Positions 1 to 6,066 of a DNA stretch of 17,452 nt are shown here, piece by piece; positions within the stretch are counted from its first letter, which is position 1; every line of letters starts with the position of its first letter. A model generated the notes under the pieces. The model worked only from the letters and a program-made list of their open reading frames with translations, was not told the origin of the DNA and ran no database searches. The position numbers were made by a program, and so were the translations under genes. Source of the stretch: an uncultured Clostridia bacterium (GTDB lineage Bacteria > Bacillota > Clostridia > Christensenellales > Borkfalkiaceae); NCBI GenBank assembly GCA_947176445.1, contig CAMWQK010000001.1, positions 1 through 17,452 of the forward strand, read 5' to 3'.

Positions 1-1376
1 CGGCACACCTCCGCGAGATTATAGAGAACCGCGCCGAGCCGCTCCCGTCTGCTCTCGTCTTTTGCGAGGATCCAGGGGGTCGTCTCGTCGATGTACTTAT
101 TTGCGCGCGCAACGAGTGCAAAGATTTCCGAAAGCGCCTCGGGCGCGTTGAGCTTCTCCATTGCGGACTTGACCTTTTCGAACAGTTCCTCCGCCATCTG
201 AACGAGCTCGCCGTCCGTGCCCTCGATTTTTCCGCGCGCGGGGAGCTTGCCGCCGAAGTACTGCCCGATCATCGCCGTCGTGCGGGAGACGAGGTTGCCG
301 AGGTCGTTTGCAAGGTCGGCGTTGATGCGCGTGAGCAATTTCTCGTTGGTATACTCGCCGTCGCTACCGAAGGGGATTTCACGCAGAAGGAAGTAGCGCA
401 CCGCGTCCGCGCCGTACCGCTTTACAAGCTCGTACGGATCGGTCAGATCCTTCTTGACCGCGTCCTGCTTGCTCTTGGAGAGCTTATCGCCGCCGATGAG
501 AAGCCACCCGTGTCCGTAGATCTGCTTGGGGACGGGTTCGCCGAGCGCCATTAAGATGGCGGGCCAGATGATGGCGTGGAAGCGCACAATCTCCTTGCCG
601 ACCATGTGCAGATTTGCCGGCCAGTATTTTTTGTAGAGCGTATCGTCTTCCGAAAGGAACCCAAGCGCGGAGATGTAGTTGCTCAGCGCGTCGATCCAGA
701 CGTAGGCGCAGTGCTTCTCGTCGAAGGGGAGCGGAACGCCCCACTTCACCGTCGTGCGGGAGACGCACAGATCCTGCAATCCCGCCTTTAAGAAGTTGTT
801 TACCATCTCGTTGACGCGGGACTTGGGCTGCAAAAATTCGGGGTTGTCCTCATACAGTTTGAGAATGCGGGGCGCGTACTTGGAGAGGCGGAAGAAATAG
901 CTCTCTTCCTTTTGCAGCGTCACCTCTCTGCCGCAGTCGGGGCACTTGCCGCCCTTTAACTGCGCCTCCGTCCACATGCTCTCGCACGGGGTGCAGTAAT
1001 AGCCACTGTATTCCGACTTGTAGATATCTCCGCTCTCGTAGAGCTTCTGATAGATTTTCTGCACGCACTTGACGTGATCCTCGTCCGTCGTGCGGATAAA
1101 GCGATCGTAAGTAATATCGAGGAGCTTCCACATATCTTTGAGCTCGGCAACCAGCGGATTAATAAATTCGAGGGGCGTGATGCCGCGCTTTTGCGCCTCT
1201 TTTTCCACCTTCTGCCCGTGCTCGTCCGTTCCCGTCAGAAAGTACACATCCTCGCCGAGCATCTGATGAAAGCGTTTGAGCGCATCGCAGATGACCGTCG
1301 TATAGCAGTGCCCGATGTGCCAGTTCCCGCTCGGGTAGTAGATGGGCGTCGTGATATAATACTTTTTCTGTTCCAT
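1..1376 (-). CDS. metG: Methionine--tRNA ligase (MetRS), C-terminus cut by window edge
   Basis: Class I aminoacyl-tRNA synthetase that charges tRNA-Met with methionine in the cytosol. The first 458 residues are present; the family is usually about 640-650 residues, so the last part of the anticodon-binding region and any C-terminal tRNA-binding domain lie outside the window. Seen directly: the HIGH motif at residues 20-23, the LTGTDEHGQK block at 47-56, a zinc knuckle with Cys128, Cys131, Cys145 and Cys148, the AYVWIDALSNY block around 224-234, and a KLSKS variant of KMSKS at 298-302. The ATG at 1374-1376 is preceded by GAGGAA at a workable distance. A long leader with an unusual palindromic element separates it from its predicted promoter. 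In Bacillus subtilis the homologue metS lies just after yabC (rsmI); here accessory genes intervene. The identification is secure. Confidence 0.97.
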   Translation of the reverse strand, partial: MEQKKYYITTPIYYPSGNWHIGHCYTTVICDALKRFHQMLGEDVYFLTGTDEHGQKVEKEAQKRGITPLEFINPLVAELKDMWKLLDITYDRFIRTTDEDHVKCVQKIYQKLYESGDIYKSEYSGYYCTPCESMWTEAQLKGGKCPDCGREVTLQKEESYFFRLSKYAPRILKLYEDNPEFLQPKSRVNEMVNNFLKAGLQDLCVSRTTVKWGVPLPFDEKHCAYVWIDALSNYISALGFLSEDDTLYKKYWPANLHMVGKEIVRFHAIIWPAILMALGEPVPKQIYGHGWLLIGGDKLSKSKQDAVKKDLTDPYELVKRYGADAVRYFLLREIPFGSDGEYTNEKLLTRINADLANDLGNLVSRTTAMIGQYFGGKLPARGKIEGTDGELVQMAEELFEKVKSAMEKLNAPEALSEIFALVARANKYIDETTPWILAKDESRRERLGAVLYNLAEVC

Positions 1377-1405
1377 ATGCAAAATTCCTCGCTTTTTATT
1401 CGTAT

Positions 1406-1686
1406 AACCAGAACATTCTAAACTCGAACTCGATTTTAGGGGGCAAAATTTGCTTGATACTTCGTTAAGCTCGCTTGCCGTACCACACGGTACGCCTGCG
1501 CGACCTTGCCTTGTCTGAATCAAATTTTGTTTCCCTAAAATTGCTACGCATCCGCGGCTGCGTATTTTGAGTTGATTTGTGCGCGGCGCGACTGCGGCGT
1601 ATAGAGACATACGCCAAACGGAGCGCCGTGCGAAAAGCATTCAAAAGCCGCGCCGCGGGCGGGTTCGGATTTGGAATGCTCTGGTT
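1406..1686. repeat. Nested palindromic element, MITE-like or structured metG leader
   Basis: This 281-bp non-coding stretch is bounded by 27-bp imperfect inverted repeats (1406-1432 against 1660-1686, 22 of 27 complementary). Inside are further inverted repeats: 1433-1452 with 1521-1541 (ATTTTAGGG and CAAAATTTG against CAAATTTTG and CCCTAAAAT), hairpin 1479-1484/1489-1494 (CGTACC/GGTACG), hairpin 1545-1550/1559-1564 (TACGCA/TGCGTA), CGCGGCGCG 1582-1590 with 1649-1657, and hairpin 1596-1602/1609-1615 (GGCGTAT/ATACGCC). It fills nearly all of the space between the metG promoter and start codon, so it would be transcribed as the metG 5' leader. It may be a miniature inverted-repeat element, an intergenic repeat of the genome, or a cis-acting RNA. 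No coding region is credible here. The palindromes are certain; their meaning is not. Confidence 0.75.
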
Positions 1687-1688
1687 AA

Positions 1689-1717
1689 ATTATAACCTTT
1701 TTTCGCCGAAATGTAAA
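1689..1717 (-). promoter_or_regulatory. Predicted vegetative promoter of metG
   Basis: On the minus strand TTTACA (1712-1717) and TATAAT (1689-1694) are separated by exactly 17 bp. The predicted start is near 1682, just inside the outer arm of the palindromic element, so the transcript would begin with the 5' arm of the closing stem and have a leader of about 305 nt. No terminator hairpin lies between the acetyltransferase stop (1725) and this promoter, so read-through from upstream is also possible. Confidence 0.65.
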
Positions 1718-1724
1718 ATGCTTT

Positions 1725-2285
1725 TTATAGCGATTTCAAATAATCCTCTTTGAGGATCGCCCGAACGTCGATATCCGTCCACTCGCCCGTAGAATGTAAT
1801 TTGAACCCGTCGCGCAGCGTCCCCTCGTATTTTAGCCCGCACTTCTCCATCACTCTGCCCGACGCGGGGTTCTGAGCGGAGTGCACCGAGTAGATACGGT
1901 GAAATCCCACCTCTTCAAAGCAGAACTTGAGAACGGCTTTCAGCGTCTCCGTCATGAAGCCCTGCCCCCAGAACTTCTTTGCCATGCAATAGCCGAGCAT
2001 GCCGCTTTGACTGTGCGTGTCCACCGATGAAACGCAGATATCGCCGATGGCCCCGCCTTCATACTCCAATGCCCAGTGATAGTAATCCGCGCGCTTGTAT
2101 CCCTCTTCCGAGGCGAGAAGAAACGCCCTCGTCTCCTCGATGCTCCCGTGCGGCGTCCAGGTGAGGAACCTTGTCACTTCGCCATCGTTCGCCCAGCCGC
2201 AGAACATCTCCTCCGCGTCGCTCACGCGGAAGGGGCGGAGCGTGAGCCGCTCCGTTTGAATGACCTGACTGCCCTTGTGCAACAT
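1725..2285 (-). CDS. GNAT family N-acetyltransferase (RimJ/RimL-like)
   Basis: A 186-residue acetyl-CoA-dependent acetyltransferase of the RimJ/RimL (Acetyltransf_3) type. It shows the family opening QTERLTLRPFRVSDAEEMF (residues 10-28), a central strand region ending in GDICV, and the acetyl-CoA binding segment GYCMAKKFWGQGFMTETLKAVLKF (family pattern Y-x5-G-Q-G-x-x-T/A-E). The C-terminal NPASGRVMEKCGLKYEGTLRDG block is typical as well. The substrate cannot be told: ribosomal protein N-termini, a small molecule or an antibiotic are all used by relatives. The start at 2285 is chosen because GGGAGGT precedes it; the frame stays open upstream to 2555, but that stretch holds the promoter and an attenuator. 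It is transcribed divergently from the TIR gene. The leader suggests regulation by transcription attenuation. Confidence 0.88.
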   Translation of the reverse strand: MLHKGSQVIQTERLTLRPFRVSDAEEMFCGWANDGEVTRFLTWTPHGSIEETRAFLLASEEGYKRADYYHWALEYEGGAIGDICVSSVDTHSQSGMLGYCMAKKFWGQGFMTETLKAVLKFCFEEVGFHRIYSVHSAQNPASGRVMEKCGLKYEGTLRDGFKLHSTGEWTDIDVRAILKEDYLKSL

Positions 2286-2299
2286 AATGACCTCCCGAA

Positions 2300-2333
2300 T
2301 ATAAAAATAACGGCTCTCCCGCAGGAAAGCCGT
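2300..2333 (-). terminator. Intrinsic terminator inside the GNAT leader (attenuator)
   Basis: In the minus-strand RNA a 10-bp stem (ACGGCUUUCC, 2333-2324, with GGAGAGCCGU, 2319-2310, one G-U pair) and a 4-base loop are followed by UAUUUUUAU. It lies between the promoter and the ribosome binding site of the acetyltransferase gene, so it would stop transcription before the gene unless an alternative fold forms. Confidence 0.72.
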
Positions 2334-2382
2334 CTCAACCGTTTTTCCGTACGCGAAAACTACCGTATTCCGTTGAATACGG
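2330..2382 (-). promoter_or_regulatory. Competing anti-terminator and upstream hairpin in the GNAT leader
   Basis: Hairpin 1 is a perfect 8-bp stem, CCGUAUUC (2382-2375) with GAAUACGG (2370-2363), loop AACG. Its 5' arm extended to CCGUAUUCAAC (2382-2372) can instead pair with GUUGAGACGG (2339-2330): ten pairs, one bulged A and one G-U. That alternative takes 2330-2333, the first four bases of the terminator stem. Hairpin 1 plus terminator therefore excludes the anti-terminator and the reverse. The pairings are visible in the sequence; the switch is inferred. Confidence 0.55.
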
Positions 2383-2422
2383 GCGGCATCGCGTACATGG
2401 GTTGTGTGTTCACGTATTTCAT
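2360..2422 (-). CDS. Candidate leader peptide (uORF) of the acetyltransferase gene
   Basis: A 20-codon ORF ending in TAG (2360-2362) whose last codons form hairpin 1 of the attenuator. It would start with ATG (2420-2422) 7 nt past the -10 box, so at or next to the predicted transcription start; the message would be leaderless. It has no Shine-Dalgarno sequence. Internal ATGs at codons 9 and 12 could be alternatives. The peptide begins MKYVNTQPMYAM and ends PPVFNGIR; it resembles no family I know. Its placement, rather than its sequence, argues that it is translated: short ORFs overlapping an attenuator are well known upstream of ribosome-related resistance genes. Confidence 0.4.
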   Translation of the reverse strand: MKYVNTQPMYAMPPVFNGIR

Positions 2423-2429
2423 GGATAAT

Positions 2430-2458
2430 ATTGTACCCTCTTTTCGTGCGGTTGTCAA
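2430..2458 (-). promoter_or_regulatory. Predicted promoter of the acetyltransferase gene
   Basis: TTGACA (2453-2458) and TACAAT (2430-2435) on the minus strand, 17 bp apart: a perfect -35 box and a 5 of 6 -10 box. Transcription would start near 2423, giving a leader of about 138 nt. Confidence 0.8.
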
Positions 2459-2496
2459 CCAAACGACGGCCCTTCAAAAAATTTTTGTTTCCCGTC

Positions 2497-2525
2497 TTGA
2501 AAGCGCGGACAAAGTGTGATATAAT
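2497..2525 (+). promoter_or_regulatory. Predicted promoter of the TIR-NB-ARC gene
   Basis: TTGAAA (2497-2502) and TATAAT (2520-2525) are 17 bp apart, with TG one base before the -10 box (extended -10). An AT-rich run, AAAAAATTTTTG (2476-2487), lies just upstream and could act as an UP element. The start near 2532 leaves a short leader of about 22 nt before the ATG. Confidence 0.82.
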
Positions 2526-2553
2526 CAAGACGAAACCACACAAGGAGCATACC

Positions 2554-4836
2554 ATGTCTCAGGCATTCCCGCACTACGATGTTCTCATATCCTATTCGAC
2601 AAAGCGCAAGGAGGTCGCGGAGGACTTTGCCGCCGAACTTGGAAAAAATGGCATCCATGTCTGGATCGCGCCCTTCTCCATCCCCGCAGGCTCGCAGTAT
2701 CCCGACGAGATATTTGCCGCCATCGACAACAGCGACATGGTGCTCTTCGTGCTCTGTGAAGAATCGCTGAGTTCCAAATGGTGCGTCAACGAGCTCCGCT
2801 ACGCCATCACCCAAAATAAAAAGGTTCTGCCCGTACAGATCACCGAGGTCGAGAATCCCTACGCGCGCATGCGGGATATCAACCGCCGCCTCTCCAAGCG
2901 GCAGATCTTCGCGCTCTACCCCGAGTATCGGGCAAAGATCGACGCGCTCATCGCGCAGAGCAGGGCGCTCCTTGCGAGCAATGCAGAGAACGTCTCCCGC
3001 CCCTACCCGCGCGACAATTACGACTTCGACGAGTACGCCGAGCTGTTTGTGGGACGGGAAACGGAGATCGGGACGCTTCACGACATGCTCCTCAACAACC
3101 GCATCGTCAATCTCTACGGCATGGGCGGGATCGGAAAGACCGCGCTCATGCGCAAGTTCTTTGCCGTATACGAGGAGGCGGACGCCTACCACAGTATGCA
3201 CGTCGCCCCGTACACGGTATCGCTGCAAGACACCATCGCCGCCATTCCGTTCGCGGGATTCGACGAGGCGGAGTATCTGAAACAGCTCCCCAAGACGGGC
3301 GAGTTCTCCAAGACGCAGGCGCTATACGAGCGCAAGCTGCAATTTCTGCAACAGCTCTCCTCGGAATGTCTGCTCGTTCTCGACGGGGCGGACAACTGCA
3401 CGGAAGAGGAGCTCCGCCCATTGAGAAGCGTGGGTTGCAATCTCATTATCACCTCGCGCAAGCGGTATCAGGGCTTTTTGGGCTACGAGCTCAAAGCCAT
3501 GAACGACGACGCGCTCATAGGGCTCTTCTTCTCCTATGCACGCCTCTCTAAGACGGCAGAAGAGGAGTGCGCCGCAAAGACGCTCATCGCGCGCGCGGGC
3601 GGGCATACGCTCACCTTAAAGCTGCTCGGCTGCTATGCCTACAACATGGGCTTTACCGCTGCGGAGCTGCTCGAAGAGGACGCGCTCTCCTCGCTTGCCG
3701 AGCTCGACACAGACGAGGAAAAAATCAGCACCCTCTTCCGTTTCAGCGAGCTTGCCGCGGAGGACCTCTACGCCCTGCAAATCCTGTCCCTCTTCCCCAA
3801 CGGCATCTCCAAGGGGAAGCTGCAAAAGATCGAACGCACCGCGCTGCGCCGCCTTCCGGAGCTTGCAAAACGGGGCTGGGTGATTGCGAGCGATACTTCC
3901 TATGCGCTGCATCAGATCGTACAGCAATGTGTTCTCTCCGGCTGTGAGATGACGACGGACGCGCTCCGCCCCTTCCTCAAAACCTTTGCCGAGGTGTTTC
4001 GCAGCGTGGGCTTTGAAAACGCCGAGCTGCACCTCATCGTCCGCCGTATCTGCTCGGCAGTCAAAGGCGACGATCACCTCGCCGCGCTCCTCTTCCATCG
4101 TCTCGGCACGTTCATCGGCGACTATTCCTACGCCGACACCTTCCATATCCCGTCCGAAATTTACGAGAGCCAGAACATGAACGTCGTCGGGCGCACCAAC
4201 AGCGAGTGTGTGAGCTTTGCGGCGTTTGACGAGTGCTTCGAAATCAACGAACGCGCGCTGAAAATCGCGCAGGCGCTTCCCATTCAGGACTACGATCTGA
4301 ATGCGTTCATCATCTCGTGCATGGGCAGTGCGCGGTTCAATCAGAACAAATTTTCCGTCGCGCTCGACTATCAGAAAAGAGCGCTTGCAGAGATCGAAAA
4401 AAAGCACGAGGAAGACAACCCCGTGCTCCTCATCGTGCTGAGCCGCCTCGGGATCACCGCGCTCGAGACGGGCGACTATGCCGACACGAAGCGCGCGTTC
4501 GAGCGGTATCTGCACATTGCGAAGACCTACCATACCCGCACGGGCAGCCCCGCGATGGCACTCTTCTATCTCGGCGAGCTTGCCTATAAACAAGGCAACT
4601 TTTCGGGCGCAGAGGAATACTACCTCGCCTCCGAAAAGGAGAATCCCGACGATCCCGCAACTTCCTTTGCGCTCTCCGAACTTTGGATGCGGCTCGCCTT
4701 TTTGTGCAAGGGCAGTGCGCGAAAGAGCCGTGCCCGCGAATACTTCCTGCGCGCTCGCGGCGTCAAGGAAAAAATACTGACGGACGAAAAGGACTTCACT
4801 GCCTTTGCCGCTCGCTACGACAAGGAATTTTTATAA
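2554..4836 (+). CDS. TIR-NB-ARC-TPR protein, candidate NLR-like immune sensor
   Basis: A 760-residue three-part protein. TIR domain at about 6-140: YDVLISYS (8-15), then SSKWCVNEL with Glu80 in the place of the catalytic glutamate of NAD-cleaving TIR domains. STAND/NB-ARC NTPase at about 160-460: Walker A GMGGIGKT (189-196), Walker B LLVLD (273-277), a sensor-like arginine in IITSR (302), GGHTLTL (349-355) in place of GLPL, and an LHQ triad (452-454) in the MHD position. The C-terminal part, about 560-740, is helical with TPR-like units (NKFSVALDYQKRAL, GDYADTKRAFERYL, GNFSGAEEYY). By analogy with other TIR-STAND proteins, ligand binding to the TPRs would trigger oligomerisation and NAD+ depletion; this is inference. 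The start at 2554 has AAGGAG 7 nt upstream; the longer frame from 2404 crosses the promoter. No terminator follows before spmA. Confidence 0.9.
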   Translation: MSQAFPHYDVLISYSTKRKEVAEDFAAELGKNGIHVWIAPFSIPAGSQYPDEIFAAIDNSDMVLFVLCEESLSSKWCVNELRYAITQNKKVLPVQITEVENPYARMRDINRRLSKRQIFALYPEYRAKIDALIAQSRALLASNAENVSRPYPRDNYDFDEYAELFVGRETEIGTLHDMLLNNRIVNLYGMGGIGKTALMRKFFAVYEEADAYHSMHVAPYTVSLQDTIAAIPFAGFDEAEYLKQLPKTGEFSKTQALYERKLQFLQQLSSECLLVLDGADNCTEEELRPLRSVGCNLIITSRKRYQGFLGYELKAMNDDALIGLFFSYARLSKTAEEECAAKTLIARAGGHTLTLKLLGCYAYNMGFTAAELLEEDALSSLAELDTDEEKISTLFRFSELAAEDLYALQILSLFPNGISKGKLQKIERTALRRLPELAKRGWVIASDTSYALHQIVQQCVLSGCEMTTDALRPFLKTFAEVFRSVGFENAELHLIVRRICSAVKGDDHLAALLFHRLGTFIGDYSYADTFHIPSEIYESQNMNVVGRTNSECVSFAAFDECFEINERALKIAQALPIQDYDLNAFIISCMGSARFNQNKFSVALDYQKRALAEIEKKHEEDNPVLLIVLSRLGITALETGDYADTKRAFERYLHIAKTYHTRTGSPAMALFYLGELAYKQGNFSGAEEYYLASEKENPDDPATSFALSELWMRLAFLCKGSARKSRAREYFLRARGVKEKILTDEKDFTAFAARYDKEFL

Positions 4837-4894
4837 CCGCTGTTTGCGATAAAACGATAAGCATATCCGCATAAATCCGCTCATAGAAAAGAAT

Positions 4895-5449
4895 ATGAAC
4901 GGTATTTTTGCGGTTATTTTTTTATGTTCGGCGGGGCTGTGCCTCATTCTCGATCCTAACTGTTTTCTGCCCGCGCTTCTTTCGGGCGGGCAGAAGGCGG
5001 CGACGCTCTCGCTGTCGCTCCTTGCCGTGTACTGCGTGTGGCTGGGGTTCTTTCAGGTGCTCGCAGACTGCGGGCTCGCGGGAAAACTCTCGGGCGCACT
5101 GCACCCCCTCTCCAAACGGCTCTTCCGTTCGACGGATAAAGAGGCGACCTTTCTTGCGACCTCCAACCTCACCGCAAATCTTCTGGGGCTTCCGGGAGCT
5201 CCCACGCCGCTCGGCATCAAAGCCGTGGAAAAGTTCTGCAAGGCGGGCAATTATTACGCCGCAGACATGCTCTTCGTGCTCAATGCGACGAGTCTGCAAC
5301 TTCTCCCCACGACGGTCATTGCCCTCCGCATTGCGGCAGGCTCCGTATCCGCATACGATATTCTGCTCCCCACGCTGCTTGCGACCCTGCTCTCGACCGT
5401 GCTCGGCGCACTGCTCGTGCGGCTACTTTGCGGGAGGAAGAAGGCATGA
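4895..5449 (+). CDS. spmA: Spore maturation protein A (SpmA-like)
   Basis: A 184-residue integral membrane protein, slightly shorter than the usual 190-200. It has several hydrophobic segments (about 3-18, 36-56, 120-145, 150-175) and the family signature SNLTANLLGLPGAPTPLGIKA at about 90-110. With SpmB it makes the Gate/nucleoside-recognition domain pair that affects spore-core dehydration in Bacillus and Clostridium, though related pairs also occur in non-sporulating bacteria; the transported solute is not established. The ATG is preceded only by a weak purine run (AGAAAAGAAT). The gene begins 58 bp after the TIR gene with no obvious terminator or strong promoter between them, and overlaps spmB by ATGA. 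Confidence 0.9.
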   Translation: MNGIFAVIFLCSAGLCLILDPNCFLPALLSGGQKAATLSLSLLAVYCVWLGFFQVLADCGLAGKLSGALHPLSKRLFRSTDKEATFLATSNLTANLLGLPGAPTPLGIKAVEKFCKAGNYYAADMLFVLNATSLQLLPTTVIALRIAAGSVSAYDILLPTLLATLLSTVLGALLVRLLCGRKKA

Positions 5450-5958
5450 AATACCTCTCTCTTCTCATTCCGCTTCTCTTTATCGCCGTTCTTCTCTACG
5501 CCGCCGTGAAGAAGGTCAAGCTGTACGACAGTTTTACGGCGGGCATCAAGGGTGCGATTCCGCTCATCGTCTCTATCTTCCCCTATCTCGCCGCCATTCT
5601 AATGCTCTCCGAGCTGTTTGAACAAAGCGGGCTCTCGGCGATCCTCACGGGCACGCTGTCACCCGTATTCGATTTCTTCGGCATTCCACCCGAGCTCTCC
5701 AAACTCGTGCTCATCAAACCCTTTTCGGGCAGCGGCGCGACCGCACTTCTCTCCGAAATTTTAAGCGCGTACGGCGCGGACAGCTATATCGGACGGTGCG
5801 CGTGCGTCTGCTACGGATCGAGCGAGACGGTGTTCTATATCTCCGCCGTCTATTTTGCAGGCGTCAAATATAAAAAGCTCGCGTTGCCTGTGTGTATTGC
5901 ACTCGCCGCGAACTTTTTAACCGTCGTATTCGGCTGTCTGATCTGTCGGGTTCTCTGA
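5446..5958 (+). CDS. spmB: Spore maturation protein B (SpmB-like)
   Basis: A 170-residue membrane protein and partner of SpmA. Hydrophobic segments are at about 2-19, 38-57, 118-135 and 148-166. Family blocks are present: SFTAGIKGAIPLIVSIFPYLAAILML near the start, KPFSGSGATALLSEI in the middle, and the GSSETVFYISAVYFAGVKYKK block near the C-terminus. The ATG at 5446 is preferred to an upstream TTG at 5428 because it has GGGAGG 8 bp upstream and overlaps the spmA stop as ATGA, the sign of translational coupling. A terminator-like hairpin follows 5 bp after the stop. Confidence 0.92.
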   Translation: MKYLSLLIPLLFIAVLLYAAVKKVKLYDSFTAGIKGAIPLIVSIFPYLAAILMLSELFEQSGLSAILTGTLSPVFDFFGIPPELSKLVLIKPFSGSGATALLSEILSAYGADSYIGRCACVCYGSSETVFYISAVYFAGVKYKKLALPVCIALAANFLTVVFGCLICRVL

Positions 5959-5959
5959 C

Positions 5960-6066
5960 AAAAGTAAAACCCCCCGAAACTCGCGTTCCGAGGGGTTTTA
6001 CTATATGATAAGGGGGAAAATTGATGAGCAATTTTGTGTACAAGTCTCGTTTCACTTAACTTGTAC
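5960..6066 (-). ncRNA. Candidate small RNA of three hairpins, antisense-facing spmB
   Basis: From a predicted minus-strand promoter (6071-6100) a transcript of about 105 nt would fold as GTACAAG/CTTGTAC (6066-6060 with 6044-6038), then AAAATTG/CAATTTT (6035-6029 with 6023-6017), then the 11-bp terminator stem with TTTTG after it. No credible ORF lies on this strand. Promoter, structure and terminator in the right order make an sRNA plausible, but there is no homology support. A tiny plus-strand ORF also lies here (see rejected items). Confidence 0.35.
5963..6002. terminator. Terminator hairpin at the end of spmAB, probably two-way
   Basis: A perfect 11-bp stem, AGTAAAACCCC (5963-5973) with GGGGTTTTACT (5992-6002). 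Read on the plus strand it ends the spmAB message with the U-run inside the stem. Read on the minus strand the stem is followed by TTTTGTC, which is the better terminator tail, suggesting it also ends a minus-strand transcript. Confidence 0.75.

Follow-up and report, generated by a model that had tools for sequence, protein, structure and literature searches.

The trp, his, and ilv leaders are the classic ribosome-mediated transcription attenuators, and ermBL, msrDL, and vmlR are leader peptide systems that respond to antibiotics. Attenuation resembling that of trp is described for the ilvB1 leader of Mtb in the available part of one account (PMC13236596), and toiL is presented, in the available text of another (PMC12121999), as an upstream open reading frame (uORF) that senses several classes of antibiotics. 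For mycobacteria, the available portions of two articles (PMC9031893 and PMC13236596) describe leader-peptide attenuation that begins at the very 5' end of the transcript, and they relay from Canestrari 2020 that leaderless short open reading frames (ORFs) containing poly-cysteine act as attenuators. Our literature search, conducted mostly without subscription journals, returned no published description of the two clostridial leaders considered here, one preceding the gene for a GNAT acetyltransferase and the other preceding tyrS.

The GNAT leader resides on the - strand of a 17,452-nt stretch of DNA from an uncultured Clostridia bacterium of the gut (contig CAMWQK010000001.1), which was analyzed as a whole and is referred to as the window; its features are listed in Table 1. 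The original prediction placed a promoter, a leader ORF, a first hairpin (hairpin 1), and an intrinsic terminator in front of the acetyltransferase gene, and all four are present on this strand. The promoter (TTGACA-17-TACAAT, 2458-2430) matches 11 of 12 consensus positions, the leader ATG (2422) lies 7 nt downstream of the -10 box, and the terminator is counted by program at 11 pairs, compared with the 10 first proposed. Region 2 (CGUACGGAAA), the candidate antiterminator strand, starts at a distance of 9 nt from the stop codon, counted from the first base of the latter, and shares bases with the 3' arm of an outer stem (1:2) that comprises 8 bp in the predicted fold. RNA spanning positions 2300-2424 folds with a z score of -5.6, and none of 200 shuffled sequences folds to an equally low energy. 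Terminator-like patterns are by themselves at chance level in positions 1-6000 of the window (6 found, 6.4 expected), so the weight of the terminator call falls on its conservation. No covariance model in Rfam, including those for T-boxes and riboswitches, matches the window at its gathering score, and when E values of up to 5 are admitted, the sole match is to a microRNA model (13.7 bits) and is not credible.

Table 1. Positions of the GNAT leader, its associated features, and the neighboring TIR gene within the window
Feature	Position	Strand	Remarks
-35 box TTGACA	2453..2458	-	Near-consensus promoter
-10 box TACAAT	2430..2435	-	17-nt spacing to -35 box
Probable transcription start	2422/2423 (A of ATG or 1 nt earlier)	-	Inferred from spacing
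Leader ORF MKYVNTQPMYAMPPVFNGIR + TAG, 20 codons, probably leaderless	2360..2422	-	Predicted
Outer stem 5' arm (region 1) GUACGCGA, codons 9-12	2389..2396	-	Fold
Hairpin 1, over last codons, abutting stop codon TAG	2363..2382	-	Fold and covariation
Outer stem 3' arm UCGCGUAC, overlapping proposed antiterminator strand	2349..2356	-	Fold
Region 2, proposed antiterminator strand	2344..2353	-	Duplex, -11.8 to -13.8 kcal/mol
GUUGAGACGG, partner of 2372-2382 in the original prediction	2330..2339	-	-9.5 kcal/mol
Region 3 UUUCCUGCG, pairing partner of region 2 within terminator 5' arm and loop	2320..2328	-	Predicted pairing
Intrinsic terminator hairpin (regions 3:4), then T-rich tail ATTTTTATAT	2309..2334	-	-19.0 kcal/mol
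Shine-Dalgarno GGGAGG of GNAT gene	2291..2296	-	Sequence
GNAT acetyltransferase, 186 aa, ATG at 2285	1725..2285	-	Acetyltransf_3, E 2.4e-34
TIR-NB-ARC-TPR protein, 760 aa, STAND/NLR-like	2554-4836	+	

To place the leader in an evolutionary context, we built a leader family from the DNA upstream of GNAT homologues in the same genus, and an initial survey of these homologues uncovered the same arrangement in nine further genomes. An alignment of 10 leaders, anchored at the ATG, yielded a consensus hairpin, 10 of whose 16 pairs show compensatory changes, and provided a covariance model that excludes both promoter and terminator. Applied to 103 genomes of the genus, the model returned 19 matches at E values of up to 0.01; 18 of these are real, and the remaining one (G097) falls within another gene. 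The entire unit of promoter, ORF, hairpin, terminator, and GNAT gene occurs in 18 of the 103 genomes, always as one copy, and in each of them the gene following the leader encodes a GNAT of the same family, the promoter matches 10-12 of 12 positions, the leader ORF, with its 20 or 21 codons, is open, and the terminator lies 19-30 nt beyond the stop codon, with the intervening spacer assuming many lengths. Four covariance matches (in G097, G136, G295, and G386) were discarded: the best promoter score among them is 9 of 12, and those in G097 and G136 are located inside a long open frame, while the ORFs in G295 and G386 consist of just 8 and 4 codons, respectively. Searches at higher ranks, in which stricter filters cause weak matches to be lost, detected no further real copy among 398 genomes of the family (genus included; E up to 0.01) and only those in G000 and G004 among 396 genomes of the order (E up to 0.001). 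At the 59 loci where a GNAT homologue occurs without the leader, the best match to the model has an E value of 0.14.

The 18 leaders are related by descent and, hence, do not amount to 18 independent tests. Nevertheless, the ORF, hairpin, and terminator, whose loss from homologues had been named beforehand as grounds for abandoning the original prediction, are retained in all 18, and the claim of a translation-linked transcription attenuator governing a GNAT gene is upheld by this conservation. Comparison of the loci shows that the predicted promoter, ORF, hairpin 1, and terminator form a conserved unit with the GNAT gene; the element in the window is a real, conserved attenuator, and one that is very probably linked to translation.

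Hairpin 1 is paired in 94.4% of cells over the 18 leaders (reached by 0 of 500 shuffles), 7 of its 10 pairs have changes on both sides (a number reached by 6 of 500 shuffles), and its covariation score is matched by 0 of 500 shuffles. The outer stem, when assessed in fixed columns across the 18 leaders, is paired in 69% of cells, and its change measures do not exceed those of shuffles; as a family-wide feature, it was set aside for want of covariation support in these columns. From start codon to hairpin 1, there are 37 nt in 14 leaders and 40 nt in the remainder (the window, G028, G073, and G070), such that this distance varies by one whole codon only, while the spacer from stop codon to terminator assumes many lengths between 19 and 30 nt.

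We consider it likely that the element is a ribosome-position-dependent (trp-type) transcription attenuator whose transcript probably begins at or beside the leader AUG. Under this model, a leading ribosome that reaches the stop codon would mask region 2, allowing the terminator (3:4) to form and leaving the gene off; a ribosome held near codons 5-16 would instead leave region 2 free, and the 2:3 pairing could then form before the 3' arm of the terminator exists, turning the switch on and permitting transcription of the GNAT gene. The coupling of transcription to translation, the kinetics, and the direction of the switch are what we infer. The trigger would most likely be slow decoding of a control segment (codons 9-15), either because a charged tRNA, with Met as the candidate, runs short or because a drug acts on the ribosome.

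In 17 of the 18 leaders, 6 nt separate the -10 box from the start codon, and in the window 7 nt do so; this near-constant spacing indicates that initiation at the leader ORF is probably leaderless. The start codon itself is ATG in 17 leaders and CTG in the other (G068, locus L120), yet the latter keeps its promoter, ORF, hairpin, and terminator. Over the 103 genomes, an ATG follows a strict sigma-A-like promoter at a distance of 6-7 nt past the -10 box in 1145 places, versus 333 places at 14-15 nt (a 3.4-fold difference), and frames of at least 50 codons are open at 40 of 55 and 30 of 38 of the 6-7-nt places that were read. Some of these long frames, judged by eye, presumably encode RuvC, thioredoxin reductase, and PrmA, and leaderless genes look to be common in this genus. 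At a single locus (L191), what we take, from its resemblance, to be greA is preceded by a leaderless 26-codon ORF and a weak terminator-like hairpin.

The frame of the leader ORF is the only one that is free of stop codons in all 18 leaders. Its pN/pS value is 0.78, whereas the two alternative frames give 1.06 and 0.97; over codons 10-20, the three frames are alike in this respect (0.75, 0.72, and 0.66). Conservation at the C-terminal end of the peptide coincides with hairpin 1, and the N-terminal half varies freely. The openness of the frame, together with the weak contrast in pN/pS, signifies that the frame is conserved more clearly than the peptide; the case for a peptide-arrest motif is, accordingly, a weak one.

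A census of promoters in the genus exposed a sister to the GNAT leader: short leaderless ORFs with a terminator (e.g., MKRSLAVAIYGYSYYALV and its relatives) situated before tyrS, which we take from its sequence to encode tyrosyl-tRNA synthetase (tyrS-upstream loci L187, L188, L193, L216, L222, L223, L225-L234, L240, L251, L255, L267, L269, L282, and L284). The tyrS gene was sought in 61 of the 103 genomes and matched in 57, and 30 loci were fetched, of which 4 were left out because their start was not found by the motif rule. Of the 26 readable loci, 14 have a leaderless Tyr leader with 3-6 Tyr codons, mostly at codons 10-15, and the window's own genome has such a leader before tyrS (MKRELFNAIYSYPYCNAANTVFCA, L269). 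In the L187 and L216 leaders, the folded hairpin spans the stop codon. Complementarity between the stop-adjacent strand and the terminator arm was evaluated with a 24-nt strand (14 nt in the case of GNAT leaders) for 16 tyrS loci, 15 of which gave results: in 12 of the 15, no more than 7 of 300 shuffles equal the duplex, and the test fails in L233, L229, and L269, where 121, 181, and 185 of 300 shuffles match it. No Rfam family was detected in any of 12 tyrS loci examined, a set that includes two leader-bearing ones.

Read from its codons, the predicted cue of the tyrS leader is plainly tyrosine. For this reason, amino acid supply is at least as likely as a drug to be the kind of cue to which the GNAT leader responds; moreover, the tyrS leaders are a precedent from within the genus and make leaderless leader-peptide attenuation a recurring practice there, as opposed to an interpretation imposed on a single locus.

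The codons of the GNAT leaders offer a candidate amino acid. Met makes up 39 of the 345 non-start residues (11.3%, versus 2.1% in the GNAT proteins, a 5.5-fold enrichment), it is the commonest residue at codons 9-15 (28 of 126), and it occurs at least once after the start codon in every one of the 18 leaders, with the ATG at alignment columns 34-36 being invariant and, thus, specifying one invariant Met. Cys accounts for 8 of the 345 residues (one in each of 8 leaders, more in none), and there is no Cys run. It is possible, if on balance doubtful, that the leader is a methionyl-tRNA sensor in which the invariant Met codon and its Met neighbors hold the ribosome back, as the Tyr codons at much the same positions would in the tyrS leader. 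Weighing against such a sensor, three leaders (G035, G027, and G028) have a single Met codon after the start, Asn and Phe are also enriched in the leader peptides (4.9-fold and 2.7-fold, respectively), the ATG may have been retained for the sake of RNA structure, the 18 leaders are related, and the GNAT is without a known link to Met. Given the relatedness of the leaders, the additional enrichments, the single-Met leaders, and the potential service of the ATG to the fold, we treat the Met signal as a lead only.

The alternative cue is a drug, and here the identity of the regulated protein matters. By profile match, the GNAT is an Acetyltransf_3 protein; it is weakly similar to the NCBIfam models for RimJ, RimL, AAC(6'), bleomycin acetyltransferase, and spermidine acetyltransferase, all of which score far below cutoff, and no NCBIfam model, including those for resistance families, reaches its cutoff. 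The nearest solved structures (3fbu and 1nsl) are described only as acetyltransferases and are followed by ribosomal-protein and spermidine acetyltransferases, and a wide protein search recovered 570 relatives, with almost none named among the best 120 of the 570. An attenuator of the erm/msr/vmlR type would be drug-inducible: a ribosome arrested on the leader by a ribosome-targeting antibiotic would induce a GNAT that modifies either the drug or a ribosomal target. The leader is of a like kind in its architecture, aminoglycoside acetyltransferases and relatives of RimJ/RimL are found among the GNATs (the window GNAT has weak, sub-cutoff matches to both), and the sensing of several antibiotic classes by one uORF has a counterpart in toiL (available text of PMC12121999). 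Such an arrangement is nonetheless a tentative proposition, in that no nascent-peptide motif is under clear selection, the N-terminal half of the peptide is variable, no resistance family matches the GNAT at cutoff, and there is no match in PADLOC.

At E values of up to 1e-20, this GNAT is encoded by 55 of the 103 genomes of the genus, with one copy in each, and 17 leader-bearing sequences group as one clade (SH-aLRT 92) in a quick tree built from 77 GNATs; the window GNAT falls beside this 17-member clade without firm placement, and a single clade of 18 is compatible with the data (p-AU 0.517). The gene that we take from its sequence to be spmA is within the fetched stretch at 16 of the 17 other leader loci (the exception being L113). 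In the window, the TIR-NB-ARC-TPR gene separates the GNAT gene from what are presumably spmA- and spmB-like genes; it has no match in the other leader loci fetched, and its product has just weak TIR matches among anti-phage models. Two loci contain related GNAT genes that do without the leader: in L045 (2880-3010), beside spmAB, the promoter directly precedes the Shine-Dalgarno sequence, and in L006 (about 1400-1500), a promoter and a terminator-like hairpin precede the gene with no ORF between them.

Which strand serves as the antiterminator can be judged from complementarity. In most leaders, the strand beginning at the stop codon complements the terminator 5' arm and loop (e.g., UGACUUGGCG with CGUCGGGUCA and GUUUGGCG with CGCCGAAC), and over the 18 leaders, the predicted duplex averages -12.9 kcal/mol, versus -8.1 kcal/mol when shuffled (0 of 300). 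Tested singly, 13 of the 18 leaders rank 24 or better of 500 shuffles, the poor ranks being those of G027 (61), G035 (72), G028 (167), G070 (219), and, in the fixed frame, the window (254). The best upstream 14-mer partner of the terminator arm starts -3 to +2 nt from the stop codon in 15 of 18 leaders. In the other three, it starts elsewhere: 8-11 nt ahead of the stop codon in G073 and G070, and at region 2 in the window. At the level of the family, the antiterminator predicted in the 18 leaders is mutually exclusive with the terminator.

The original prediction proposed a different switch, in which the 5' arm of hairpin 1 (CCGUAUUCAAC) pairs with GUUGAGACGG and, thereby, removes the base of the terminator. 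The window does contain this pairing, with an energy of -9.5 to -10.5 kcal/mol; in the fixed frame (-10.5 kcal/mol), it beats the stop strand (-5.4 kcal/mol); a shifted stop-side strand is stronger still (-13.8 kcal/mol) and is the one chosen by the fold when the ORF is blocked. In the 17 other leaders, its counterpart amounts to -2.4 to -6.3 kcal/mol in 16 and -9.0 kcal/mol in G004, and the stop-strand pairing is the stronger of the two in every case. As a general switch, it was rejected in favor of the stop-adjacent partner, which is the best in 15 of 18 leaders. Because the stop strand of the window is weak unless shifted, the pairing first proposed retains a small chance of operating in the window only, although we consider this unlikely. 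The stop-adjacent partner also removes a puzzle that attended the earlier scheme, namely, how stalling could favor the antiterminator while the ORF covers hairpin 1.

We modeled the ribosome as a block extending to 15 nt beyond the start of the P-site codon and folded the nascent RNA, i.e., the RNA without the 3' arm of the terminator, with the leader blocked at a chosen codon. With the block at the last codon as opposed to mid-ORF, the 5' arm of the terminator shows less pairing with upstream RNA in 17 of the 18 leaders (slightly so in G067 and G068). Mean occupancy in the window is constant under this model (0.64 and 0.63), and the best structure goes from -10.8/-15.7 kcal/mol to -7.8 kcal/mol with the loss of part of the stem. 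For unblocked RNA, the predicted state is mixed, ranging from 0.06 to 0.97 over the leaders. Once the complete terminator is included, equilibrium folding favors it at almost every position of the ribosome (two codons of G073 clearly depart from this); equilibrium folding was consequently dropped as a model of the switch and the nascent RNA used in its place, and the switch, if it operates as proposed, must be kinetic and decided while the RNA grows. Taken as a predicted structure, the 2:3 pairing of region 2 with the terminator 5' arm and loop is supported by both complementarity and modeling.

It is conceivable that the RNA acts without translation, as a metabolite- or protein-binding leader in which the ORF is incidental, and the clearer conservation of hairpin 1 than of the peptide speaks for such a role. 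We judge this improbable, since no Rfam family matches, the frame of the ORF is the sole stop-free one throughout the 18 leaders, the spacing from -10 box to start is nearly constant, and the cue of the tyrS sister lies within its ORF. That the leader is a constitutive partial terminator, which is unregulated and merely lowers expression of the GNAT, accords with the nearby homologues that do without it (L045 and L006) but is very improbable, as the ORF, the covarying hairpin at the stop codon, and the complementary strand would all be needless.

The trp-type attenuator, which we continue to favor, could be part of a larger scheme in which the genus runs leaderless trp-type attenuators that sense slow decoding: the tyrS leader would read tyrosyl-tRNA, and the GNAT leader would read a conserved Met-containing segment and induce a RimJ/RimL-like GNAT able to neutralize a poison of translation, for instance an aminoacyl-nucleotide that inhibits tRNA charging. 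We offer this as speculation, with little expectation that it is correct in full. RimL and microcin C provide the precedent for an acetyltransferase disarming an aminoacyl-nucleotide. Were the GNAT to act in this manner, translation stress would switch on its own antidote, and more generally, the role of the GNAT may follow from finding what stalls the ribosome on its leader.

Set against the systems already described, the GNAT leader shares with the trp type a short leader ORF, exclusive antiterminator and terminator structures, an intrinsic terminator before the structural gene (in 18 of 18 GNAT leaders), and, as proposed here, a ribosome at the stop codon that masks the antiterminator strand. 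It differs in lacking a run of control codons for the amino acid of a pathway, in controlling a GNAT rather than a biosynthetic operon, in being probably leaderless, and in having a covarying hairpin that abuts the stop codon. The antibiotic-inducible leaders (ermBL, msrDL, vmlR, and toiL) likewise place a short ORF and alternative RNA folds before a gene; theirs are systems with a drug, an arrest peptide, and a resistance gene, whereas the GNAT leader is known from sequence alone. In common with the mycobacterial poly-cysteine attenuators, the GNAT leader would have a leaderless short ORF on which the speed of elongation controls the next gene, but it occurs in Clostridia, contains no Cys run, and has an intrinsic terminator before the GNAT gene. 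The closest likeness is to the tyrS leader, with which it shares a strict promoter, an ATG 6-7 nt past the -10 box, an intrinsic terminator, and, in most cases, a stop-adjacent antiterminator; the tyrS leader is distinguished by Tyr codons that name its likely cue and by its target, tyrosyl-tRNA synthetase. Together, the two clostridial leaders, one of them with a readable cue, constitute a pair in which to study how the first ribosome on a leaderless transcript is coupled to RNA polymerase.
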